Shown: positions 6,582 to 46,650 of the stretch, in pieces
Position numbering within the stretch: position 1 is the stretch's first letter
Layout of the letters: each line of letters opens with the position of its first letter
NCBI GenBank assembly: GCA_902799685.1
Contig: CADCBO010000004.1
Span: forward strand, 124,001-188,000
From: an uncultured Bacteroidales bacterium
GTDB lineage: Bacteria > Bacteroidota > Bacteroidia > Bacteroidales > Bacteroidaceae
Length of the DNA: 64,000 nt
Direction: 5' to 3'
Program-made: the position numbers and the translations under genes
The notes under the pieces: model-generated
Told to the model about the DNA's origin: nothing
What the model saw: the letters and a program-made list of their open reading frames with translations, nothing else
Databases searched by the model: none

Positions 6582-6632
6582 GGGGACGGTTCTTTTTGTG
6601 CCCTTGCCAAGGGCACAAAAAGAACCGTCCCC
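6582..6632. repeat. Perfect 25-bp inverted repeat, REP-like hairpin
   Basis: Arms 6582-6606 and 6608-6632 are exact reverse complements around one central base. Each arm starts GGGGACGGTT and has a TTTTTGTGCCCTTG inner half. It lies in the divergent tig/lptB spacer, upstream of the lptB promoter. It lacks a terminal T run and is not placed at a gene end, so a terminator role is not favoured. Arms of the type GGGGACGGTTCT recall REP/REPIN sequences mobilised by IS200-like REP-associated transposases; that assignment rests on memory of the motif. No transposase gene is in the window. Confidence 0.75.
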
Positions 6633-7465: not shown

Positions 7466-9126
7466 GACTTAGCAGGTACATATCCGTCTTATGTGCTGCC
7501 TTATTGTTCGTGATGACGGCCCGGGCAGTCCAGATACGCAGGGAACCCGGCCATCGTTTACCTGAATACATACTCCCCACTGACCGTGACAATCCCATGC
7601 TATGGTCGGACAATTCATCCTCCATACTCACCCGGGCTGCCGTTCCAGGCGTCTATGCCAACAATGACATTCCCAGAACCGGCACCATAGAATACCCCCT
7701 CATCCTGGTTGATTTCATAGACTGTCCTTTTACACTCCGCGACACGCTAGCCTTGCTGGAACGTTATGAAAAGATGTTCAATGAACAGGGATACACCGAT
7801 ACAATCGGATTCATACATAATGGAGTCAGATATTACGGGGCTACCGGTAGTGTATCGGATTATTTCAGGGACCAGTCTTACGGACAGTATGTGCCCAAGT
7901 TCAAGATAATAGGCCCCGTCCATCCGTCCAAAGGGTACGCCTATTACGGGAAGGGTACAAAAGACGACAATATCAATATGCTTGTACGCGAAATATGCAG
8001 ACTTGTAATAGAGAACGGACTGGCTGACCTGTCAGGATACGCACGTAACGGAACCATTGACCAGCTTTCAATCATATATGCAGGACGCGGCGAGAATTAT
8101 GACGGGGCCGATGTCAACACCATCTGGCCGCAAGCCAGCTACCTGGATATTGACAACAGGAATGAACCTGCCATATACAAAAGCGGAATCAGAAAGATCA
8201 AATTCGCCTGCTCATGCGAGTTGTTCTGGGATTCGGATTCCATTCCTGACGGCATAGGCACTTTCTGCCATGAGTTCTCCCACACGCTTGGACTGCCCGA
8301 TTTCTACAACACCTCGTCCGAATCGGAATCCATAACAGATGCCTCCATGGGCTACTGGAGCATTATGGATTACGGGATTTATGAGAATGGAGGGTTCTCG
8401 CCTGTGGGCTATACCGCATTTGAAAAATACTCTCTGGGATGGATGGACATTGAAGAGATTGACTATTCAGGATACTATTACCTCAATGAAATAGGAACCA
8501 AGCCCCAACCGGAGGCAGGCATCCATTCCGCATACAGGCTCAACACCGGCCTTGATGACCAGTTCATAATTCTGGAGAACCATAACGGAACCGGATGGTA
8601 CAAGTATCAGGCTTGCCAAGGACTGATGGTCACAGCGGTCAATTATGACAACAACAGATGGGTTGGCAATAACGTCAACAACCAGAAAAACAACAAAAGA
8701 TATGCAATCCTGCCTGCCGACAACGATTATGACAGGAACACCAACTCAGGTGACCTGTTCCCCTATAAGGACATTGACAGCATCACCACGCTTGGAACTC
8801 CCGTACTCAAAGCCGGTACGTCATATCCTTTGTATTCCATTTATGACATAAAACTTGAAAACGGTCTGGTATCATTCCATGCAAGACCGGACATACACTC
8901 GGCAGTTGAAAGCCACCCGGATCAGGAAATCTCAATCAGCGTAACTGACGGCGAACTCTCCGTGACAGCCCCCACGGGAAGCAGTCTGACAGTATTCGAC
9001 ATTTCCGGCAAGGCCATACTGCATACCTTGACTACAGAGCCCCGGCAACTTATCAGTCTGCCGGGAAAGGGCATCTGGATTGTCAAATGCGGCAACAAGG
9101 TCAGGAAGTTGAGAATTGAGAATTGA
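7462..9126 (+). CDS. Secreted M6-family metalloprotease with T9SS-like C-terminal domain
   Basis: The 554-residue protein begins with a signal peptide (hydrophobic residues 5-22). A zinc metalloprotease domain carries HEFSHTLGLPD (270-280), the HExxHxxGxxD pattern of M6 (immune inhibitor A-like) peptidases, then a Met-turn-like SMGYWSIMDYG. The last 80 residues (after about 475) look like a type A T9SS sorting domain: VFDISGKAI, a Gly-containing turn, IWIVKCGNKVRKLRI. Start is GTG at 7462, overlapping the lptB stop as GTGA; the next in-frame Met would cut into the signal peptide. The last codons (IEN) come from a short repeat. Predicted surface-bound or released; substrate unknown. Confidence 0.85.
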   Translation: MRLSRYISVLCAALLFVMTARAVQIRREPGHRLPEYILPTDRDNPMLWSDNSSSILTRAAVPGVYANNDIPRTGTIEYPLILVDFIDCPFTLRDTLALLERYEKMFNEQGYTDTIGFIHNGVRYYGATGSVSDYFRDQSYGQYVPKFKIIGPVHPSKGYAYYGKGTKDDNINMLVREICRLVIENGLADLSGYARNGTIDQLSIIYAGRGENYDGADVNTIWPQASYLDIDNRNEPAIYKSGIRKIKFACSCELFWDSDSIPDGIGTFCHEFSHTLGLPDFYNTSSESESITDASMGYWSIMDYGIYENGGFSPVGYTAFEKYSLGWMDIEEIDYSGYYYLNEIGTKPQPEAGIHSAYRLNTGLDDQFIILENHNGTGWYKYQACQGLMVTAVNYDNNRWVGNNVNNQKNNKRYAILPADNDYDRNTNSGDLFPYKDIDSITTLGTPVLKAGTSYPLYSIYDIKLENGLVSFHARPDIHSAVESHPDQEISISVTDGELSVTAPTGSSLTVFDISGKAILHTLTTEPRQLISLPGKGIWIVKCGNKVRKLRIEN

Positions 9127-9140
9127 AAATTGAGAATTTA
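9109..9140. repeat. AATTGAGAATT-type short repeat, left copy
   Basis: Degenerate tandem of TTGAGAA units that encodes the last residues and stop of the metalloprotease. It forms an inverted pair with 9203-9235 around a terminator hairpin. Related copies lie at 46584-46603, 46638-46650 and 63099-63126. Confidence 0.7.
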
Positions 9141-9170
9141 CCATGCGGTGCGTAAAACCCGCGACATTTA

Positions 9171-9203
9171 AAAACGAGCGAAGATTTTCGCTCGTTTTTT
9201 ATA
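9171..9203. terminator. Bidirectional terminator between metalloprotease gene and der
   Basis: Arms AAAACGAGCGAA (9171-9182) and TTCGCTCGTTTT (9187-9198) around GATT, with T-rich flanks for both directions. It sits between two convergent genes. Confidence 0.85.
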
Positions 9204-9235
9204 ATTCTCAATTCTCAATTTTCACTTCTCAATTT
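9203..9235. repeat. AATTGAGAATT-type short repeat, right copy
   Basis: Units of ATTCTCA in inverse orientation to 9109-9140, ending at the der stop codon. Together with the left copy it extends the terminator into an imperfect palindrome about 125 bases long. Confidence 0.7.
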
Positions 9236-10547
9236 ATTTTTGTCTTATAAAAATATTGATTGGCGTACCACAAAAATCCCACTTTTCACGGATCTTGTTT
9301 TCAAGGAAGCGTTTGTAGGGTTCCTTTACGTACTGCGGCAGGTTTGCAAAGAATACGAATGACGGTATCTGCGGTCCCTGAAGCTGGGTGCAATATTTAA
9401 TCTTGATATATTTGCCCTTGGTGGATGGAGGCGGATAAGCCTCTATGAGCGGCAGCATCTCAGCATTCAGCTTGCCTGTCGATACATGGTTCGTCTTGTG
9501 TTTATATACATCCTTGGCCAGCTCCAGCACCTTAAGGATACGCTGCTTCTCCGTGGCCGATGTAAACACGATGGGGAAATCCACGAACGGAGCCAGACGC
9601 GAACGGATGGCATCCTCGTAGTTCTTCATCACCTTAGCCGAACGATCCTCGATGAGATCCCATTTGTTCACCACAACCACAAGGCCTTTCTGGTTCTTGA
9701 CAATGAGAGATACTATATTCATATCCTGACTCTCAATGCCACGCGTGGCGTCAAGCATCAGCACACATACATCACTGTTCTCGATGGCACGGATTGAACG
9801 CATCACGGAGTAGAACTCCAGGTCCTCCTCCACCTTGCTTTTCTTGCGTATGCCGGCAGTATCCACCAGATAGAAATCAAATCCGAACTTAGTATAACGG
9901 GTATATACTGAATCACGCGTGGTACCGGCTATATCAGTCACTATGTTTCGGTCCTCACCTATGAAAGCGTTTACGATGGAGCTCTTACCCACATTAGGGC
10001 GGCCCACAACCGCAAAACGCGGAATGTCCTCATCTGTCTCGGCATCTGCCTCAACAGGAAGTTTGGCTACAACGACATCCAGAAGGTCACCTGTACCGCT
10101 TCCGTTCGCCGCCGATATGCAGATGGGATCACCTAACCCCAGACGATAGAACTCTGCAGCGGCATACTGCAAATCGAAAGTGTCCATCTTGTTGGTTACC
10201 AGGATGACCGGAGTCTTGGAACGGCGCAGAATTCCGGCCACCTCATCGTCCAGGTCCGTCACACCGTTCTTTATATCTACCAGGAACAATATGAGATCTG
10301 CCTCGTCAATGGCTACCTTCACCTGCTTGCGTATCTCCTCCTCAAACACGTCATCTGATTTCACCACCCAACCGCCTGTATCAACCACAGAGAAAACGCG
10401 GTTACCCCACTCGCACTTACCGTACTGACGGTCACGGGTGGTACCGGCCACATCATCCACAATAGCCTGACGGGTCTGGGTCAACCGGTTGAACAGTGTT
10501 GACTTGCCCACATTGGGGCGGCCTACTATCGCTACAAGGTTACTCAT
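9234..10547 (-). CDS. der: Ribosome biogenesis GTPase Der (EngA)
   Basis: Tandem-GTPase factor for 50S subunit assembly. The first G domain opens right after the start ([16 protein letters not shown], then DTGGW), the second begins at about residue 173 ([23 protein letters not shown]), and a C-terminal KH-like domain closes the protein (437 residues). I use the ATG at 10547 ([12 protein letters not shown]), which fits the family. A TTG at 10562 overlaps the era stop (TTGA) and would add five residues; it looks accidental. Directly downstream of era. Confidence 0.95.
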
Positions 10548-11687: not shown

Positions 11688-12227
11688 TTATTCGTTATCT
11701 GATTCCATCAAGCTGTTCAAAGCATCCCAACGCGGATCATTTGCTCCTGAATCCTCTACAGCGCCTTCCTCTCCCTCATCGGCAGAATGCTCGTCAAGCT
11801 TCTCCATCATACCCTTGTTACATTTGCCCGGGGCATGTACATGCTTGATAGGTATGGCCAGTGCTATGAACTCATAGATGTACCATGCCACGTTTACAAG
11901 CCCCTTGTCCTCCGGTACCACCACAATGTCACCGTCATCTGCAAAATCAGGCCCAAGCTTTACCTTGAGTTCACCTGTATTATCAATGTCAAGTGACAAG
12001 TCATCCAGGCAACGGTCACAAGTCACGATCACTGTCCCGTTGACAGTAAAAGCCAGATGGTAAACACCGGATACCTTTGTGACATCAAGGTTTACATTCA
12101 CCTTACCGCGCTGTACCTCTTCGCCCTCCACTATACTGAAGAACTCCTGGTCAACGGTCCAGTTATAGGTAGAATTGGCATCCGTAAGCCCCTTCAGGTC
12201 AACATTATATTTATCCAGTCTTCCCAT
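11688..12227 (-). CDS. DUF177 (YceD-like) protein
   Basis: Conserved bacterial protein nearly always upstream of rpmF and linked to 23S rRNA or large-subunit accumulation in other organisms. From the ATG at 12227 (MGRLDKYNVDLKGL) it has 179 residues. The conserved core has the pair CDRCLDDL at about 93-100, then GPDF and an acidic C-terminal tail, ending WDALNSLMESDNE with the typical PRWDAL motif. A -7-like TAACTTTG (minus, 12255-12248) sits about 20 bases upstream. Confidence 0.88.
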   Translation of the reverse strand: MGRLDKYNVDLKGLTDANSTYNWTVDQEFFSIVEGEEVQRGKVNVNLDVTKVSGVYHLAFTVNGTVIVTCDRCLDDLSLDIDNTGELKVKLGPDFADDGDIVVVPEDKGLVNVAWYIYEFIALAIPIKHVHAPGKCNKGMMEKLDEHSADEGEEGAVEDSGANDPRWDALNSLMESDNE

Positions 12228-12317
12228 CTGACAAATTTTTCGGGGCACAAAGTTACAACTTTATTTTTCAAACAGAAAATATTACTGCCATTTTTGGTTA
12301 AAAACACTTTTTAAGGG

Positions 12318-12494
12318 AAGCTTAATGGTATAGAGTCTTTGAAATTACGGCCCTTCGGGCCTATCCCATTGTCCATTGGCCAATGGGATGACCTTTTTTT
12401 ATTTCGCTACCGCGAAAAGCTCCTTCGGAGCGGGCCCCTCCCTCTAACGCGCCGAGGGTGGCGACGGTTTCCAAGATTCTATACCATTAAGCTT
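12318..12494 (-). repeat. Long-stem GC-core hairpin element, copy A
   Basis: Terminal arms 12318-12344 and 12468-12494 are inverted repeats: the outer 17 bases are exact, then 8 of 10 match. Read on the minus strand the interior has a core (12464-12435) with stem CCCTC/GAGGG, then GGGAGGGGCCC, a hairpin GCTCC-GAA-GGAGC, a stem GCGAAA/TTTCGC, a 9-bp stem ATCCCATTG/CAATGGGAT and a final GGCCC-GAA-GGGCC. It is related to copies B (12544-12675) and C (24143-24258). It lies upstream of the DUF177 gene in a 450-base gap. Function unknown: mobile hairpin element or structured RNA. Confidence 0.75.
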
Positions 12495-12543
12495 TGTGCA
12501 AATAGAATCATTACTATATGAACAAAGGATCCTTGTACGCACA

Positions 12544-12675
12544 GAACTTTTTGGGAGTATAGTCTCAAAAACCATCGACGCCCGTGTCGTGCGAACGGGA
12601 GGGGCCCGCGCCATAGGCGTGGGAGGGGTAGGGCCGAAGGCCCGTAGTTTTGGAGATTATACTCCCAAAAAGTTC
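12544..12675 (+). repeat. Long-stem GC-core hairpin element, copy B
   Basis: Terminal arms 12544-12572 and 12647-12675 pair over 29 bases with two mismatches. The core at 12575-12604 has stem CCCGT/ACGGG followed by GGGAGGGGCCC, then hairpins CGCC-ATA-GGCG and GGGCC-GAA-GGCCC. It is opposite in orientation to copy A and lacks A's middle portion. It begins 12 bases beyond the stop of the sensor kinase gene, so it would be in that gene's 3' untranslated region. Confidence 0.75.
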
Positions 12676-12687
12676 GTTGTTAACGAC

Positions 12688-13839
12688 TTATCGAGGGATT
12701 TCGATGCGGAAGGTGGTGCCTTTGTTCAGCTCGGAGTGGGCGACGTAGATTTTGCCTTTGTGGTACTCGGTGACGATACGCTTGGCAAGCGAAAGGCCCA
12801 GACCCCAGCCACGCTCCTTGGTGGTGTAACCGGGATCAAAGACACTCTTCCATGAACTTTTGGTAATGCCCTTGCCGGTATCCGTAACATCTATTGTTAC
12901 CCAATTCTTATCCTCGGTCAATTTGATTGTAAGCTTGCCTTTTCCACTCATTGCATCGACTGCGTTCTTGCAGATATTCTCAATAACCCAGCCAAACAAC
13001 GATGCGTTTACACGGGCATTTACCGGTGGATTGGGGAAATCACGTACAAACTTGACGGTTGCCGGCGAACGGTGCTCCACATAATCTATAACGCCGTCCA
13101 GCACGCCTACCATATCGGCCTGAACAGGTTCAGGCATGGAGCCTATCTTGGAGAATCGCTCAGCAACCATCTGAAGACGGTTAACATCCTTCTCCATCTC
13201 ACCTATCAGCTCATCGTCATACTTGTCCTTGAGCAACTCCGTCCAAGCCATGAGTGACGATATGGGAGTACCCAGCTGATGTGCCGTTTCCTTGGACAGG
13301 CCCACCCATACACGGTTCTGTTCAGTCTTCTTAAAGCTGAGCAAGGCAAAAATCGCGATAAGCACAAACAGCATGACCACGCCCATCTGGATATACGGAT
13401 AGACCGTCAGACGGTTCAGGAGCAGCGACTCGTCAAAACACACCTCGTTATAATGTTCAGTGTCAGATTCATCAAAATAGATCTTGATTGAATTGCCAAG
13501 CTGACGCATACGCTCCACGCAGCTGTTCAGGTATGCCAGGGTATCGGCCTTCTTTATTTCTATATTCAGGAAACTCTTCACGTCATTGGTCTCATCCACC
13601 ACTATCACAGGGATAGTCTTGTTTCCTGACAGGACAGAGAGCACCAGACTCAGGTCCGTGTTCTCATCGGCATCGCTCAATGACTGGTATGCCTGTGCAA
13701 AAAGCTCCATCTTGGAATGCTCCTCGCGTGACAGGTCCTTGACCAGAGACTGTGACACGAACAGCGAAATGAATGCAATTATAATGGCTACTACTATGAG
13801 TACGGTCCGTATGCGCTTGAATTCCCTGATTTTTCTCAT
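12688..13839 (-). CDS. Membrane sensor histidine kinase
   Basis: From the ATG at 13839 the 383-residue protein has a transmembrane helix at about 9-29, an extracytoplasmic sensing region of about 130 residues, a second helix (IQMGVVMLFVLIAIFALL), a phospho-acceptor region ETAHQLGTPISSLMAW, and an ATPase domain with N box (ENICKNAVDAM), G1 DTGKGI and G2 GWGLGLSLAKRI. This is the HisKA/HATPase architecture. No response regulator is adjacent, so the partner and signal are unknown. It ends next to hairpin element B; tatD lies 70 bases upstream. Confidence 0.9.
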   Translation of the reverse strand: MRKIREFKRIRTVLIVVAIIIAFISLFVSQSLVKDLSREEHSKMELFAQAYQSLSDADENTDLSLVLSVLSGNKTIPVIVVDETNDVKSFLNIEIKKADTLAYLNSCVERMRQLGNSIKIYFDESDTEHYNEVCFDESLLLNRLTVYPYIQMGVVMLFVLIAIFALLSFKKTEQNRVWVGLSKETAHQLGTPISSLMAWTELLKDKYDDELIGEMEKDVNRLQMVAERFSKIGSMPEPVQADMVGVLDGVIDYVEHRSPATVKFVRDFPNPPVNARVNASLFGWVIENICKNAVDAMSGKGKLTIKLTEDKNWVTIDVTDTGKGITKSSWKSVFDPGYTTKERGWGLGLSLAKRIVTEYHKGKIYVAHSELNKGTTFRIEIPR

Positions 13840-13909
13840 TAAAAGCCGCCACCCGTTTTTTGAGTGACATAGAATAAACGGATTGAGACTGGGTATATTG
13901 TACGGGAAC

Positions 13910-14704
13910 TCAAAGACGGAACATACGACAGGCATTCTCCCGAGTCACACGGGCCACCTCATCCGTACTCACGCCATAGACCTGAGCCAGCGCCACCGCC
14001 GTATTGACTATGTATGACGGCTCGTTACGCTTACCCCTGAACGGAACAGGCGACAGATACGGACAATCAGTTTCCAGCACGACCCTGTCCATGGGTATAA
14101 TTGGAAGTACCGATGGCAATACCGATTTCCTGTAGGTCAGCACGCCACCTATGCCGAACATGAATCCGCCGAACTCCATAAGAGCCTCCGCCTGAGCGGA
14201 ATCGCCTGAAAAGCAATGGAATATGCCCCTCAATCCGCAATCCCTGTAGTTGGAGAGCACGTCATAAAGCTGGGTGAAAGAATCCCTTGAATGAATTACG
14301 ATTGGCAAATCATATTCCAATGCCCACCCTATCTGGACTTTGAAAGATTCAATCTGGTCATCCAGACGGGACTTGTCCCAGTAGAGGTCCAGCCCCGTCT
14401 CGCCAATTCCTATGAAACGGTGCGCGCCATCCGGACGCCGGTCCGTGTCAAGCCCCTCTTTAAGACATGCCAGCTGGCTGCGGAAATCATCCGCCAGGTC
14501 CTCAGGGTGCAGTCCTGTCATGGGACGGCACACATCGGGCCACCTGTCGCACACGGCAAGTAGTCCGTCAAGCGTATCAGGATTGATATTGGGAAGAAGC
14601 AGATATTCCAGGCCCGCCTCAAGGGCCCTGTCCATCACCTGCGGCAAATCATCGCTGAAAGCCTCGTCATAGACATGGCAGTGGGTGTCAATCAGCCTTC
14701 TCAC
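13910..14704 (-). CDS. TatD-family metal-dependent hydrolase
   Basis: Two-metal (beta/alpha)8 amidohydrolase; family members act as DNases. The 264 residues carry IDTHCHVYDE (metal ligands), GETGLDLYW, HSRDS, FHCFSG and ETDCPYLSP. The start is GTG at 14704 (MRRLIDTHCH). It overlaps the preceding unknown gene by 17 bases, so the two are translationally close. The family is certain, the substrate is not. Confidence 0.9.
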   Translation of the reverse strand: MRRLIDTHCHVYDEAFSDDLPQVMDRALEAGLEYLLLPNINPDTLDGLLAVCDRWPDVCRPMTGLHPEDLADDFRSQLACLKEGLDTDRRPDGAHRFIGIGETGLDLYWDKSRLDDQIESFKVQIGWALEYDLPIVIHSRDSFTQLYDVLSNYRDCGLRGIFHCFSGDSAQAEALMEFGGFMFGIGGVLTYRKSVLPSVLPIIPMDRVVLETDCPYLSPVPFRGKRNEPSYIVNTAVALAQVYGVSTDEVARVTRENACRMFRL

Positions 14705-23128: not shown

Positions 23129-24148
23129 ATGAGACAGATTAGGATTCCCGCACAGGGAGAGATGATAGTAGAGGAGGCACAAAAGCCACAGGCCGGTGCC
23201 GGTGAGGTGCTTCTTAAGATAGGATATGTAGGGTTTTGCGGATCGGACCTGAATACTTTCCTGGGCCGTAACCTGATGGCCAAAGAGGCTGTAATCCCAG
23301 GCCACGAGATTGGCGCAACTATTGAGAGCGTAGGTTCCGGAGTACCGGAGTTCCTTTCACCAGGAATGACTGTAACGGTCAATCCCTACACCAATTGCGG
23401 ACACTGCGCCGCCTGCCGTTCCGGCCACCCCAACGCCTGTGAGTTCAATGAGACTCTGGGCGTGCAGCGTGACGGCGCCATGCGTGACTATATGGTACTC
23501 CCATGGCAGAAAATCATACCCGCTCCCGGCATAGCCTTGCGTGACTGTGCCCTGATAGAACCCATGAGCGTAGGATTCCACGCAGTATCCCGCGCCAAGG
23601 TTACTGACTCCGACACAGTGCTGGTTTTCGGATGCGGAATGATAGGCGTAGGCGCAATAGTACGTGCATCACTGCGCGGAGCTACCGTCATTGCAGTAGA
23701 CTTGGACAACGAGAAACTTGCGCTGGCCAAACGTCTTGGAGCATCCTACACCATCAACTCAAAGGAGCAGGACCTGCATGCAACTCTCACGGAACCCACC
23801 AACGGACTTGGTCCCACAGTAGTTGTTGAAGCAGTAGGCAGCGTACCCACATATCAGGCAGCAATAGATGAGGTCGCATTCTCAGGCCGCGTAGTCTGCA
23901 TAGGCTACTCCAAAAATGATGTAACCTTCCACACCGGCCTGTTCGTAAAAAAAGAGATAAACATCCACGGTTCCCGCAATGCCCTGCCATCAGACTTCGA
24001 AGCAGTAATCCGCTACCTGCAACGTGGCACCTGCCCCAAAGACGAACTCATCTCTGCCGTTGTCAAGCCGAATCAGGCGTTGGATGCAATGAAAAAGTGG
24101 GTCGAAGCACCAGGAAAAGTCTTTAGAATCTTGGTAGACTTCAATTGA
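23129..24148 (+). CDS. Zinc-dependent medium-chain alcohol dehydrogenase
   Basis: 339 residues. The catalytic zinc region is GFCGSDLN (Cys near 37) and GHEIG; the structural zinc Cys cluster is NCGHCAACRSGHPNAC, and the NAD-binding fold has VFGCGMIGVGA. It resembles sorbitol-, threonine- or L-galactonate-dehydrogenase-like members. Fourth gene of the putative fucose operon, it could oxidise L-fuconate or a keto-acid product; the exact step is open. Its stop codon lies inside the left arm of hairpin element C. Confidence 0.8.
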   Translation: MRQIRIPAQGEMIVEEAQKPQAGAGEVLLKIGYVGFCGSDLNTFLGRNLMAKEAVIPGHEIGATIESVGSGVPEFLSPGMTVTVNPYTNCGHCAACRSGHPNACEFNETLGVQRDGAMRDYMVLPWQKIIPAPGIALRDCALIEPMSVGFHAVSRAKVTDSDTVLVFGCGMIGVGAIVRASLRGATVIAVDLDNEKLALAKRLGASYTINSKEQDLHATLTEPTNGLGPTVVVEAVGSVPTYQAAIDEVAFSGRVVCIGYSKNDVTFHTGLFVKKEINIHGSRNALPSDFEAVIRYLQRGTCPKDELISAVVKPNQALDAMKKWVEAPGKVFRILVDFN

Positions 24149-24258
24149 GCCTGCTTCAAAATAGGCCATAGGGTCTCAGGGAGTCTCGCACCCACGCGCG
24201 ACCAGTGGGAGGGCATTCTCCCTGAGACCCTATGGCCTATTTTGAAGTGGGCTCAATT
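24143..24258 (+). repeat. Long-stem GC-core hairpin element, copy C, spanning two stop codons
   Basis: Arms 24143-24183 and 24218-24258 form a 41-bp stem: 9 bp, two T-G wobbles, then 30 exact bp. The loop holds the core 24186-24213 with stem CCCAC/GTGGG followed by GAGGG, matching the cores of copies A and B. The outer arms contain the stop codons of both convergent genes (24146-24148 and 24253-24255). It could end transcription both ways, but there is no long T run directly after the stem. Confidence 0.8.
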
Positions 24259-26106
24259 TTCACTATCCTCAGCGTCGAGAGACTTTATCTGGGCAAGCAA
24301 ATCATCTGCTTCCTGCTTGAGAGTCTCTATCTTGGCCTTAATGGCGTCCACAAAGCCGTTGCCGGCCTTGCTTGAGGCGTTCATGAAGCCCAGGTTGTTC
24401 TCATAGGTCTGGAGCTCTGCCTTCTTCTGCTCATACTGGCGCATCAACTTTTCACGCGGTGAGCCTGTCTCACGGGCGGCACCTCCACGCTGGGCCGGAC
24501 GGCCGCGGCGAGTGCTTACCATGTTTGCAAAGGGCTCCATGGCAGCCTTGAACTGGGCCGCAATCTTGTCTTTCACCTTGAAGGGTACAAATCCTATGCC
24601 GTTCCACTCATCAACCAGTTGCTGGATGGCCTGGATATCATCATCGCTCAGGTTATCGGCATCAAACTCCTTGAGCTTGGCCAAAATTTCCTTCTTGGCT
24701 GCAAGGTTGGTGTTCTCCTCACGTTTCTTTGATGAGGTGTTCTTGTCACGCTGCTCGTAGAAATAGTCACATGCACCAATAAAGCGCTTCCAGATTGAGT
24801 TGGTGTACTTTTTCTGAACGGGGCCAATCTCACGCCACTGTTTCTGGAGCTCTGCCATCTTATCGGCGGTCTCCTTCCAGTCTGTGCTCTCCTTCAGGGC
24901 CTCGGCCTGCTCACACAGGGCGGTCTTCTTCTCAAGGTTTGCAGTCATATCGGTCTTGGCCTGCTTGAAGAACTCACCCTTGCGGCTGAAGAAGGCATCA
25001 CATGCGGCGCGGAAACGCTCAAAAATCTTCTGGTTCTGCTTGGCTGGAGCAAATCCTATGTCTTTCCACTTCTTCTGCAGGGCAAGCACCTCCTGGGTCT
25101 TGTCATTCCAACTCTGGAAAGTGGTAAGCTTGTCATATTCAATCCCCTCCAGAAGTTCGCAGATTACGGTTTTCTGGTCCAGGTTCTCCTTCTCTTTCTC
25201 CTTAAGCTGCTCAAAATGCTGCTGGTGCCGCTTGTTTATCACTGTCGATGCGGCCTTGAACCTGTTCCAGATCTCTTCTCTTGATTCCTTAGACACCGGA
25301 CCAGTCTCACGATACTCCTGATGCAGTTTCTGGAGCTTACGGAAGGCAGCCACGATATCGGGGTCATCGGCCAGTTTCTCAGCCTCCTCACAGATGGCTA
25401 TCTTGGCCTCCATGTTCTTCTTGAAATCATACTCGCGGAACTCGTTGTTCAGTTTCTGTATGTCATAGAACTGCTCGGCATACTGCTGATATGATTTCCA
25501 AAGCTCATTTGCCTTATCGGCCGGAACCTCCTTTATCTCCTTCCACTCCTGAACCAGCGCCTTGAACTCATTGTACGATGCACCTTCAGTATTGGCTTTC
25601 TCAATAAGAGCCTTGAAGCGGTCAAGCAGTTCCAGTTTCTTCTTGTAGTTCTCCTTCTGGACAATCTCAAGGGCCTCCTGAGCGGCGGCTTTCTTCTCCT
25701 TGATAATGTTCATAAGCTTACGGTACTGCTCCTCTATAGGGTCAGGTTCCGGCTTGAACTCCTCGGCTGTACCTCCGCCAGCCACGAATGCAGCTATCTG
25801 CTCATCCTGGGCAGCCCTCTGCAATTTGTAGAATGCCTGCTTTAGTGATTCCAACTCCGGACGCTTGGCTATGCTGATGTCGCCCACCATCTCCTGCAGG
25901 CGCTCAATTATACTCTCTCTTGTAAGGGCGGTTTCCTCCTGCGCAGCATCCTCCACGGCACTCTCCTGTTCGGCAGTCTCCTGAACGGGAGCCTCTTCCT
26001 CCTTCACTTCAGCCTCCTGCTGAGCGGGTGTCTGCTCTTCAACTACGGCAGCCTGCTCCTGGGGTTTCACCTCCTCTACAACATTATTCTTCTGTTCCTC
26101 TTCCAT
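24253..26106 (-). CDS. DUF349 repeat protein
   Basis: From the ATG at 26106 (MEEEQKNNVVEEV) the protein has 617 residues. The first 65 or so are a Glu/Gln/Ala-rich acidic stretch. The rest is a chain of about five helical DUF349 repeats, each with a Trp-containing motif (LVQEWKEIKEVP, LQKKWKDIGFAP, LQKQWREIGPVQ, LVDEWNGIGFVP), followed by a coiled-coil end. Common in Bacteroidetes; function unknown, with helical-scaffold or nucleic-acid-associated roles suggested for the family. Cytosolic: no signal or membrane segment. Confidence 0.88.
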   Translation of the reverse strand: MEEEQKNNVVEEVKPQEQAAVVEEQTPAQQEAEVKEEEAPVQETAEQESAVEDAAQEETALTRESIIERLQEMVGDISIAKRPELESLKQAFYKLQRAAQDEQIAAFVAGGGTAEEFKPEPDPIEEQYRKLMNIIKEKKAAAQEALEIVQKENYKKKLELLDRFKALIEKANTEGASYNEFKALVQEWKEIKEVPADKANELWKSYQQYAEQFYDIQKLNNEFREYDFKKNMEAKIAICEEAEKLADDPDIVAAFRKLQKLHQEYRETGPVSKESREEIWNRFKAASTVINKRHQQHFEQLKEKEKENLDQKTVICELLEGIEYDKLTTFQSWNDKTQEVLALQKKWKDIGFAPAKQNQKIFERFRAACDAFFSRKGEFFKQAKTDMTANLEKKTALCEQAEALKESTDWKETADKMAELQKQWREIGPVQKKYTNSIWKRFIGACDYFYEQRDKNTSSKKREENTNLAAKKEILAKLKEFDADNLSDDDIQAIQQLVDEWNGIGFVPFKVKDKIAAQFKAAMEPFANMVSTRRGRPAQRGGAARETGSPREKLMRQYEQKKAELQTYENNLGFMNASSKAGNGFVDAIKAKIETLKQEADDLLAQIKSLDAEDSEN

Positions 26107-26205
26107 ATATCGGGAATGATTTACTTTGTTAATACCTTGCAAAAGATGCAAATAAAAACAATAATCCGCAAAACTCCTAATTTCCCGGCATTTTTCTGCG
26201 GGAGA

Positions 26206-31854: not shown

Positions 31855-31902
31855 GTCCTCCTTTCCTGGTTCGAGTCCGGGTAGCCCAACAAAAAAGAGA
31901 CG
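31855..31902 (+). repeat. Inverted copy of the tRNA-Gln 3' half plus its terminator
   Basis: These bases are the reverse complement of 31909-31956 except for two single-base indels and one substitution. They carry the last 30 or so bases of tRNA-Gln (T arm TTCGAGTCC and acceptor TAGCCCA) in the opposite orientation. The 5' half of a tRNA is absent, so this is a fragment, not a second gene. It could be left by integration or by an inverted duplication at the terminator. Confidence 0.85.
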
Positions 31903-31920
31903 CAATCACGTCTCTTTTTG
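31891..31920 (-). terminator. Terminator of tRNA-Gln
   Basis: Arms AAAAAGAGACG and CGTCTCTTTTT around six bases, starting at the tRNA 3' end with a T run on the minus strand. Confidence 0.75.
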
Positions 31921-31991
31921 CTGGGCTACCCGGACTCGAACCAGGAAAGGCAGGACCAGAATCTGCAGTGTTACCATTACACCATAGCCCA
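31921..31991 (-). tRNA. tRNA-Gln (anticodon CTG)
   Basis: Minus-strand cloverleaf: acceptor TGGGCTA/TAGCCCA, D arm with AATGGTAA, anticodon loop TTCTGGT giving CTG, and T arm with TTCGAGT. Discriminator G and no encoded CCA, as usual in this phylum. The anticodon stem has one A-C mismatch next to the loop. Confidence 0.92.
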
Positions 31992-43984: not shown

Positions 43985-46597
43985 ATGATGACAGCTAAGG
44001 AAATACGTGATTCCTTCAAGAGTTTCTTTGAGAGTAAAGAGCACCTGATAGTACCCTCCGCCCCCATGGTGGTAAAGGATGACCCCACCCTGATGTTCAC
44101 CAACGCCGGCATGAACCAGTTCAAGGACATAATCCTGGGTAACCGCGCCCCCAAGAGCCGCCGTGTGGCCGACTCGCAGAAGTGCCTGCGCGTAAGCGGT
44201 AAGCACAATGACCTGGAGGAGGTAGGACATGACACCTATCACCACACCATGTTCGAGATGCTGGGCAACTGGTCATTCGGTGACTACTTCAAGAAAGAGG
44301 CCATCAGCTGGGCATGGGAATATCTGGTGGATGTTCTCAAACTTGACCCCAAGAACCTGTACGCCACGGTATTCGAGGGCAGCCCTGAAGAGGGACTGGA
44401 GCGCGACAATGAAGCCGCTGCCATCTGGGAGCAGTTCCTGCCCAAGGATCATATCCTTAACGGCAACAAGCACGATAATTTCTGGGAGATGGGCGATACC
44501 GGCCCCTGCGGCCCATGCAGTGAGATCCACATGGACTCACGCTCCGATGAGGAGAAGGCCAAGGTGCCCGGCCGCGACCTTGTAAACAAGGACCATCCCC
44601 AGGTAATAGAGATATGGAACCTGGTGTTCATGCAGTTCAACCGCAAGGCCGACCACTCACTGGAGCCCCTGCCCGCCAAGGTAATCGACACCGGTATGGG
44701 ATTCGAGCGTCTGGTACGCACTCTGCAGGGCAAGCAGTCCAACTATGACACAGACGTATTCCAGCCCATCATCAAGCAGATAGGCGCACTGACCGGCCTT
44801 GAGTACGGAAAGGATGAAAAGGTTGATATAGCCATGCGCGTTGTTGCCGACCACATCCGCACCATAGCATTCAGCATAACCGACGGCCAGCTGCCGTCCA
44901 ACGCCAAGGCCGGTTACGTGATACGCCGCATACTGCGCCGTGCAGTACGTTACGCCTACACGTTCCTGGGCCAGAAGGAGGCTTTCCTGTACAAACTGCT
45001 GCCCGTACTGATTGACAACATGGGCGATGCATATCCTGAACTGAACGCACAAAAGACACTGATAGAGAAAGTCATAATAGAGGAGGAAGAGTCATTCCTG
45101 CGTACCCTTGATACAGGTATCAAACTGCTGGACAAGGTTATGGCCGATGCCAAGTCTGCCGGTACAACCGTCATCAGCGGTGTGAATGCCTTTACTCTTT
45201 ACGATACCTACGGATTCCCGCTAGACCTTACCGAGCTTATACTGCGTGAGAACGGCATGACCGTGAACATTGACGAGTTCAACGCCGAGATGGCCAAGCA
45301 GAAGGCCCGCGCCCGCAACGCAGCTGCCGTTGAGAACGGTGACTGGGTAGTGCTCAAGGAGGGTGAGACAGAGTTTGTGGGTTATGACTTTACAGAATAC
45401 GAGACATCAATCCTGCGCTACCGCGAGGTAAAGCAAAAGAGCGGCGTAATCTATCAGATTGTACTTGACAAGACCCCGTTCTATGCCGAGATGGGCGGTC
45501 AGGTAGGCGACCAGGGAGTCATAGTAAGCGAATTCGAAACCATCGATATTATTGACACAAAGAAGGAGAACGGCCTGCCCATACATATAACCAAGAAACT
45601 CCCCCAGCACCCCGAGGCACCCATGATGGCTTGCGTGGATACCGACAAGCGTCACGCCTGTGAGGCCAACCACACCGCAACCCACCTGCTGGATGAGGCT
45701 CTGCGCGAGGTTCTGGGTACACATGTCGAGCAGAAAGGTTCACTGGTAAGCCCGGAAGGTCTGCGCTTTGACTTCTCACACTTCCAGAAGGTTACCGATG
45801 AGGAGTTGCGCCAGGTGGAGCGTCTGGTCAATGAAAAGATCCGTCAGGACCTGCCCCTGCAGGAGCATCGCGACCTGCCCATAGAGGAGGCTAAAAAACT
45901 CGGTGCAATCGCCCTTTTCGGTGAAAAGTACGGAGATAAGGTTCGCGTAGTACAGTTCGGCCAGTCAATAGAGTTCTGCGGTGGCGTTCATGCCGCTTCA
46001 ACCGGACATATCGGACTCTTCAAGATATTGTCAGAAAGCTCTATCGCCGCTGGTGTACGCCGCATTGAGGCTGTTACCGGCCAGGCTGTTGAGGAGATGA
46101 TTTATGGACTCCAGGACACCATCACCGCTCTCAAGAACATACTGCCCGGCTCATCAATCGAGACAGCAGTAAAGAAAGCAATCGATGAGAACGCTGCCCT
46201 AAAGAAACAAATTGAGGAGTTCATGAAAGAGAAGACAGCCCAGCTCAAGGATAAACTCATTGAACAGGCACGCAATATCAACGGCGTCATGGTAATAAGC
46301 GCTGTTATCCCCGCTCCTGCCGCAGTTGTCAAAGACCTGGTTTTCGGCATCCGCGCCGAGAAGCCAGCCGGCACTCTGGTTATCATAGGCAGTGAGGAGA
46401 ACGGCAAGCCCATGCTTACCGTAAGCGTAAGCGATGACCTGACATCACGCTTCAACGCAGGCCAGATGGTACGCGAAGCTGCCAAGCTCATCCAGGGCGG
46501 AGGCGGCGGCCAGCCCCACTACGCCACTGCCGGCGGCAAGAACCCGGGGGGTCTGCATGCCGCTGTGGAAAGCTTGATAAAGGCAATTGAGAATTGA
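43985..46597 (+). CDS. alaS: Alanyl-tRNA synthetase
   Basis: 870-residue class II synthetase: catalytic core motif 2 region [12 protein letters not shown], motif 3 near TGMGFERL, editing domain with the zinc-site motifs [11 protein letters not shown] and [13 protein letters not shown], and a C-terminal oligomerisation domain with [19 protein letters not shown]. Complete. The last codons (AIEN) come from an AATTGAGAATT-type repeat. Start ATG at 43985, or the next codon. Confidence 0.97.
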
Positions 46598-46603
46598 AAA
46601 TTG
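46584..46603. repeat. AATTGAGAATT-type short repeat at the alaS end
   Basis: CAATTGAGAATTGAAAATTG spans the alaS stop. Its inverse partner is at 46638-46650, across the terminator. Confidence 0.65.
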
Positions 46604-46604
46604 T

Positions 46605-46637
46605 AAAAGGCGCTCGAGATTTTTTCGAGCGCCTTTT
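46605..46637. terminator. Bidirectional terminator between alaS and the DUF4832-like gene
   Basis: Arms AAAAGGCGCTCGA (46605-46617) and TCGAGCGCCTTTT (46625-46637), 7-base loop GATTTTT. Its design resembles the 9171-9203 terminator. Confidence 0.88.
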
Positions 46638-46650
46638 GCAATTCTCAATT
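46638..46650. repeat. AATTGAGAATT-type short repeat, inverse copy
   Basis: GCAATTCTCAATT carries the stop codon of the minus-strand gene that ends at 46645. Confidence 0.6.

Follow-up and report, generated by a model that had tools for sequence, protein, structure and literature searches.

What kind of element forms the two long hairpins that lie side by side, in opposite orientation, in one intergenic gap of an uncultured Bacteroidales bacterium, and is their folding maintained? The gap is part of the 64,000-nucleotide stretch analysed here (the window) and is flanked by a putative DUF177-like ORF at 11688-12248 (minus strand) and a putative histidine-kinase-like ORF at 12688-13935 (minus strand). 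Copy A (12318-12494, minus strand) is closed by an outer stem, P1, whose 5' arm at 12468-12494 and 3' arm at 12318-12344 each measure 27 nt, and copy B (12544-12675, plus strand) by arms of 29 nt at 12544-12572 (5') and 12647-12675 (3'). With 93% complementarity between the arms of each hairpin, the near-perfect outer stems of the original prediction are confirmed in place. Folded as RNA, copy B reaches -75.1 kcal/mol (z -7.6) and copy A, read on the minus strand, -83.9 kcal/mol (z -7.3); 0 of 200 shuffles are equally stable in either case.

Within P1, the paired differences which had been noticed between the inner hairpins of A and B are present in the sequence, and two of the three inner hairpins proposed, P3 and P4, stand as such. 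The third has to be redrawn: CCCTC/GAGGG in copy A and CCCGT/ACGGG in copy B constitute stem 2 of an H-type pseudoknot, whose stem 1 is CGCC/GGCG or CGAC/GTCG, respectively. Stem 1 (columns 11-17/24-30 of alignment A1, see below) crosses stem 2 (columns 19-23/34-38), and by sequence and the A1 model (columns 11-38) the pseudoknot maps to 12440-12466 (minus) in copy A and to 12573-12599 (plus) in copy B. There it is followed by the unpaired AGGGG joint (12600-12604; columns 39-43), the invariance of which is partly imposed by our search pattern, by P3 (12605-12623) with a G-U closing pair after CCC/GGG, and by P4 (GGGCC-GAA-GGCCC, 12631-12643) and then GTA, both hairpins being placed by A1 and RNA folding. 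The architecture of the element is hence an H-type pseudoknot with two small hairpins and G-rich joints, enclosed by the long stem P1. A covariance model of the element (R1) scores copy A at 57.9 bits (E 2.3e-12 over 12336-12476) and copy B at 95.2 bits (E 6.9e-22 over 12563-12656). The original prediction had also named a copy C without a location; a third match was found at 24143-24258 (plus; R1 match 24174-24227, 24.3 bits, E 8.5e-4), where 41-nt arms, 95% complementary, enclose the pseudoknot only. By eye, this copy retains the long stem and the pseudoknot without the last two hairpins, and it sits between the convergent ORFs 23129-24148 and 24253-26151.

Alignment A1 comprises 69 cores, 52 from the named collection, 15 from the genome of the window (own genome), one from a relative, and copy B. 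The 104 parsed cores were reduced by ten with a long P3 to 94, copy A being among the unparsed or long-P3 ones; two of the 94 (one viral sequence of alphaproteobacterial type, one truncated) and then all rows more than 95% alike were removed. In one row (L108) the P1 5' arm is gapped. The consensus reads P1 - C-G-U - stem 1 - GCCCNN or ACCCNN - stem 1' - UGA-like - NNGGG in its first part and AGGGG - CCC-P3-GGG - AGGGAUA - P4 - GUA - P1' in the remainder. All helices of the element covary. For the whole structure 93.3% of cells are paired and 25 of 35 pairs show changes on both sides; its covariation score of 0.551 compares with 0.156 for shuffled alignments (0 of 500 reach the score) and with at most 0.087 for the slid control, so that the differences between A and B, as had been proposed, are compensatory. 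The pseudoknot stem on its own is 100% paired, scores 0.464 against 0.157 when shuffled, and contains two pairs that swap among G-C, A-U, U-A and C-G. Pairing amounts to 86.6% in P1, 98.6% in stem 1, 100% in stem 2, 96.8% in P3 and 88.3% in P4. Further pair types (67) are no more frequent in A1 than in the shuffles (71.0; 475 of 500), as is expected because the columns themselves vary freely. The constancy of GGGAGGGGCCC and GGGAGGGAKAG is partly imposed, since both are part of the search pattern. Columns 80/100 hold U/U in 65 of the 69 cores and G/A in four.

Several core variants were seen. L110, L118 and L153 carry an extra domain (AAGGAGGAAAAGGTC-GAAGACCTT plus a CGACGC...GAGCG helix) between the pseudoknot strands. 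At L083 (1-1524 and 1704) and L124 (95), other DNA takes the place of the 5' half of the core and ends in CTAAAA immediately before GTGAACGGG; upstream of the interrupted core of L083 lies a long transposase-like ORF, as though an IS had inserted into the element.

The outer stem behaves differently from the core in that its sequence is unlike between copy groups while its pairing is kept; one own-genome group has GAACTTTTTGGGGTATC-like arms in common. Of 113 parsed copies, 84 with 12 or more stem pairs were retained; in these, P1 has a median length of 28 bp and a maximum of 53, and is perfect in 18. The pairs that are not Watson-Crick indicate which strand folds. When G-U and A-C are scored alike, 64 G-U pairs face 10 A-C pairs in P1 (48 versus 9 distinct contexts, p 1.5e-7), and this excess of G-U identifies the folding strand; a G-U-favouring scoring had given 286 versus 90, and the figures of 64 and 10 are those of the strand-neutral scoring. 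Further inside, G-U is hardly above A-C, both in the ten inner P1 columns of A1 (19 versus 13) and in all A1 columns minus pair 47-71 (23 versus 16). The strand asymmetry thus rests on the outer stem together with one wobble, the closing pair of P3 (G-U 42, A-U 26, G-C 1 among the 69 cores). The sixth P1 pair from the core is mismatched in about half of the copies (55%, compared to 21% at position 5), mostly as neither G-U nor A-C. A subset of copies has a one-sided leader before P1, AAGYGARC in 12 and AAGRTGYAC in 6 of 113, with 0 and 0 on the 3' side.

A and B are members of a dispersed, many-copy repeat family found in Bacteroidales of the rumen and gut. In the own genome (2.81 Mb in 37 contigs, 85.8% complete), BLAST with 12300-12700 as query yields 64 matches, and R1 finds at least 34 places at E 0.01, a lower bound because scoring covered 150 of the 463 first-look candidates. 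Across the genus, 25 of the 37 genomes contain the exact core pattern GGGAGGGGCCC-N6..30-GGGAGGGAKAG (reversed-pattern control 0), and DNA matches were obtained in 16 of 31 genomes, all within the genus. Among 392 other genomes of the order, five of them of the same family, none has the exact pattern, and with 14 candidates scored per genome R1 finds nothing in 295 genomes from the rest of the phylum. The named collection holds at least 117 matching stretches; by title, the 117 matches listed comprise 79 from Bacteroidales, Bacteroidia, Bacteroidaceae, Prevotellaceae or Candidatus Coprenecus, for the most part of rumen or gut origin, 37 from Alphaproteobacteria or an uncultured Sph- bin, and a single one from a Deltaproteobacterium. 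The covariance-model search and the covariation test that had been suggested for the two hairpins both come out positive. That A and B are merely two palindromes which resemble each other by chance has a negligible probability and is rejected by copy number and covariation: at least 34 own-genome matches, occurrence across the genus (25 of 37 genomes), and 0 of 500 shuffles reaching the score.

A palindrome scan of 607,496 bases, in sampled stretches chosen around copies, returned 30 full elements, 2 with the pseudoknot only, 16 REP-like palindromes and 15 others; in these counts at least one row is misclassed (L300 15209) and one entry is a run of N.

Empty sites in relatives were looked for at two loci that carry the element, the window locus and the L029 locus. 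The flanks of the window site were located in all 37 genomes and the gap was fetched from 32 of the 36 others, none of which contains the core (0/32). In three of the sister species, for example (G017, G008, G007), the two genes are separated by a short spacer whose alignment with the window ends at about 12300 and resumes at about 12685. Alignment to these three and G709 sets the stretch missing in sister species, which comprises copies A and B and their spacer, at approximately 12300-12684. A and B were inserted at the window site after the species diverged. Other species carry, by eye, something else in this gap: an unrelated palindromic, apparently structured insert, GCCATCC...GGATGG with inner hairpins, in G717 (L213), G716 (L215), G718 (L216) and G015 (L222), a GGGGACGGTTC palindrome in G719, a third kind of insert in G720 and G012, and about 3 kb in G006. 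Such differing inserts in several sister species mark the gap as a hot spot. At the L029 site, 17 other species were fetched, of which 8 are empty, 6 have an orthologous copy, 1 an independent copy and 2 another insert. Insertion into a pre-existing palindrome was considered and rejected for the window and L029 sites, as the empty sister gaps are short and lack such arms; the arms therefore arrived with the insert.

Seven species, the own one included, have the orthologous L029 copy, six of them with both arms, and these copies make the fate of P1 after insertion visible. The middle of P1 differs between them, while its outer and inner parts agree. Changes on both arms versus one arm number 7 versus 3 for G000/G014, 6 versus 3 for G014/G015, 5 versus 1 for G014/G006, 4 versus 3 for G000/G015, 2 versus 2 for G015/G006 and 2 versus 3 for G000/G006, with none for G014/G705. 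In the copy of G716 both arms carry two additional bases, and P3 and P4 vary too with their pairing retained. Stepwise compensation, template switching and conversion from another copy could each have produced such two-arm changes; template switching is described as a source of two-arm changes in PMC8794818, and conversion fits poorly where the flanking P1 parts on both sides stay the same. Two of the seven orthologues are damaged, that of G715 by loss of the 5' arm and that of G006 by loss of part of the core, so copies also decay and not every one is kept functional. Taken together, the G-U excess in P1 and the two-arm changes in place retain the proposed selection for folding in a broader form, namely that the folding of one strand is selected or otherwise maintained.

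Where the copies settle was assessed for 77 with enough flank, 59 of which lie between called ORFs and 18 inside ORF calls, the gene calling being crude; two further copies have no neighbour. Gap copies are mostly located downstream of a gene: 55 of the 59 lie downstream of at least one, and convergent gaps (16) outnumber divergent ones (4; p 0.012). The stems overlap stop codons at copy C and at the L029 locus. Strand preference relative to the neighbouring genes is absent: both neighbours lie on the strand of the element in 18 gaps (++) and on the other strand in 21 (--; p 0.75). The opposite orientation of A and B, put forward as part of the design, is no general one, as both orientations occur and many copies are solitary.

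This placement, the overlapped stop codons and the two-arm changes in place would suit a host-used RNA at transcript 3' ends, that is a terminator, mRNA protector or attenuator which an earlier mobile phase dispersed and which selection now keeps in place. Yet such a role sits badly with the equal frequency of both orientations, with the one terminator-like site found in 12200-12750 (0.5 expected), with patchy presence inside one genus and with damaged orthologues, and we regard this explanation as unlikely.

We favour, with a probability of roughly 0.55, the reading that A and B are copies of a non-autonomous interspersed element that acts through one folded strand, probably as RNA, and that is for the most part found downstream of genes. 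According to this proposal, the folding strand would act as RNA, and the conserved core would be a protein-binding platform or catalytic core used in mobilisation. P1 would need pairing only and its sequence would be free to drift, with template switching between the arms at replication probably helping to renew both together. Copies would survive where harm is small, at gene 3' ends, where the P1 stem may double as a terminator or mRNA end protector. The RAYT/REP system may carry some copies, as its REP palindromes lie on both sides of them.

This last point leads to an account at the level of DNA, in which a RAYT transposase (Y1, HUH) would move a REP/REPIN-like palindrome in the form of folded single-stranded DNA, with the core as the recognised ssDNA fold and RNA being unneeded. 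The own genome has two Y1_Tnp genes (open frames of 287 and 294 aa), presumably RAYT-like. Both (L300 15209-16297, and L314) are by eye bracketed by GGGGACGGTTC- or GGGGTCAGGCCCC-type palindromes, and in a loose scan REP-type palindromes of the kinds flanking Y1 genes lie on both sides of 8 of 32 own-genome copies. Folded DNA tolerates G-T pairs as well, and PMC6006769 describes Bacteroidetes RAYTs of subclass 2.6 that have atypical secondary structures on their flanks, structures repeated elsewhere in the genome. However, in the same loose scan 24 of 32 copies lack such a palindrome on at least one side, and what flanks the Y1 genes is small palindromes instead of the pseudoknot element, whose core was by eye not found beside either of the two own-genome Y1 genes. 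Y1_Tnp genes are present in 23 of the 37 genomes of the genus, and their presence is not associated with that of the element (16 of 25 genomes with the element, 7 of 12 others; Fisher p 1.0). The orientation bias with GC skew which lagging-strand targeting predicts was not seen either (17 of 35 copies, p 1.0; GC skew over 11-20 kb, a rough proxy for replication), which makes lagging-strand targeting less likely. On balance, RAYT-driven movement as DNA seems unlikely, though less so than a host-used 3'-end RNA. The GGGGACGGTTC and GGGGTCAGGCCCC palindromes are also frequent elsewhere in the own genome and occur once in the window (6582-6632).

The element resembles REP/REPIN sequences with their RAYT (Y1) in being short, palindromic, intergenic, mostly gene-downstream, present in many copies and presumably moved in trans, and REP palindromes frame some of its copies. 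It differs by its length of 95-180 nt, its pseudoknotted core, its long stem of free sequence and the lack of a visible GTAG tag at the 5' foot. Given that it is absent beside the two own-genome Y1 genes and that its presence across the genus does not follow that of Y1, it is not a REP/REPIN member. Nor is it a classical MITE: inverted outer arms, non-autonomy, dispersal and empty sites in relatives are common to both, but the arms of the element are inverted repeats per copy, unlike between copy groups and without a common terminal repeat. A consistent target-site duplication was not seen: 16 of 109 copies have direct repeats of 8 or more nt, where 7.7 would be expected, and the best of these are nested REPs. 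A single clean pair, ATGCACTA, encloses the copy in the L029-site gap of G709 (L132 / G709:C42, about 9560-9740), which has other arms and opposite orientation.

HEARO, group II intron and retron RNAs have a pseudoknot, a multi-branched core and mobility as common themes, which speaks for the element being a known large RNA-guided or catalytic mobile RNA, be it IscB/TnpB-associated (HEARO), a group II intron derivative or a retron. Against this, Rfam 15 places no family on the element at gathering score, whether in the window or at 12 related loci, and the one model that appears at E up to 5, Acido-Lenti-1, has 17 bits where its cut-off is 37. The gathering-score matches that were obtained are two tRNAs in the window and one tRNA plus a glycine riboswitch in the related loci. 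A reverse transcriptase domain (RVT_1), present in 7 of 37 genomes, has no match in the own genome at 85.8% completeness. We thus consider a known mobile RNA of this kind very improbable; reverse-transcriptase-dependent mobility was rejected on the same missing RVT_1 match.

The Rfam result also sets the element apart from Bacteroidales motifs such as Bacteroidales-1 and Bacteroid-trp, which are likewise structured, covarying and of Bacteroidales. The proposal that the design belongs to no named family agrees with Rfam 15 and with the literature searched, in which no earlier description was found; this covered few subscription journals and included PMC3733652, PMC6006769, PMC8040213, PMC2864571 and PMC8794818. 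CGTC-tagged REPs (Di Nocera et al. 2013, PMC3733652) are alike in their range of Bacteroidetes and alpha-Proteobacteria, in having no dedicated transposase and in that some dimers lie within long palindromes. They differ by 8-9 bp stems, 20-40 bp units and CCA tails, and by having neither a pseudoknot nor conserved G-rich joints. The palindromic structured-RNA candidates from the human microbiome (Fremin and Bhatt 2021, PMC8040213; 80-132 bp, Bacteroidetes) may include the element.

Known bacterial interspersed repeats are mostly simple palindromes. The present family instead holds a compact, strongly covarying pseudoknot in a stem of free sequence and kept pairing, and orthologous copies and empty sister sites make the evolution of this stem visible. 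It hence provides a natural experiment on the renewal of long perfect stems, by compensatory selection or by template switching, and its core is a starting point in the search for the protein or RNA activity that recognises it.

Part of this core resembles repeats outside the phylum. Alphaproteobacterial stretches (L058, L064, L065, L123 and others) and the viral stretches L173-L182 contain GC-rich repeats that share the half GGGAGGGGCCC-hairpin-GGGAGGGAGAG. These repeats are without the long stem and P4, and Rfam gives no match in the loci tested. In 60 of them the closing pair is G-T in 47, A-T in 8, G-C in 3 and G-G in 2. R1 returns 88 matches on them up to E 1 (best 39.4 bits), scores that are partly circular because the repeats were fetched by the search pattern itself. 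A more far-reaching version of our preferred reading would make the element a new class of mobile non-coding RNA, in which the core acts as RNA to mobilise the element itself, the freely varying but paired P1 is renewed by arm-to-arm copying, and the AGGGG-CCC-hairpin-GGG-AGGGAKAG half is an old module common to repeats of Sphingomonas, Caulobacter and other Alphaproteobacteria, with the same G-U closing preference; we hold this combination to be speculative and quite unlikely. All ten matching stretches in viral contigs (L173-L182) score with R1 like the alphaproteobacterial kind, and those that were folded (L173, L176, L181) resemble this GC-rich kind. Copy B has no match among 50,697 phage and 72,556 plasmid records, and carriage by phage or plasmid was rejected on these two grounds. 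Sphingomonas sp. Leaf230 has up to five half-core repeats, about 1.2-2 kb apart.

Further palindromes were noted in passing. A second palindromic family, with arms beginning GCCGGACTAT, occurs at L311 13771-14040 (the place of L047) and L291 7463-7653; at L311 it lies within GAACTTTTTAGGGTATCAGTATC arms, which are like the arms of the pseudoknot element. In the window, a 36-nt inverted repeat at 31860-31950 overlaps the tRNA at 31921-31991 (minus), an inverted partial copy of which adjoins it. At 9109-9232 and 46592-46650, as well as in other stretches of the genome, palindromic arms of AATTGAGAATTGAGAATT-like repeats surround short inserts.
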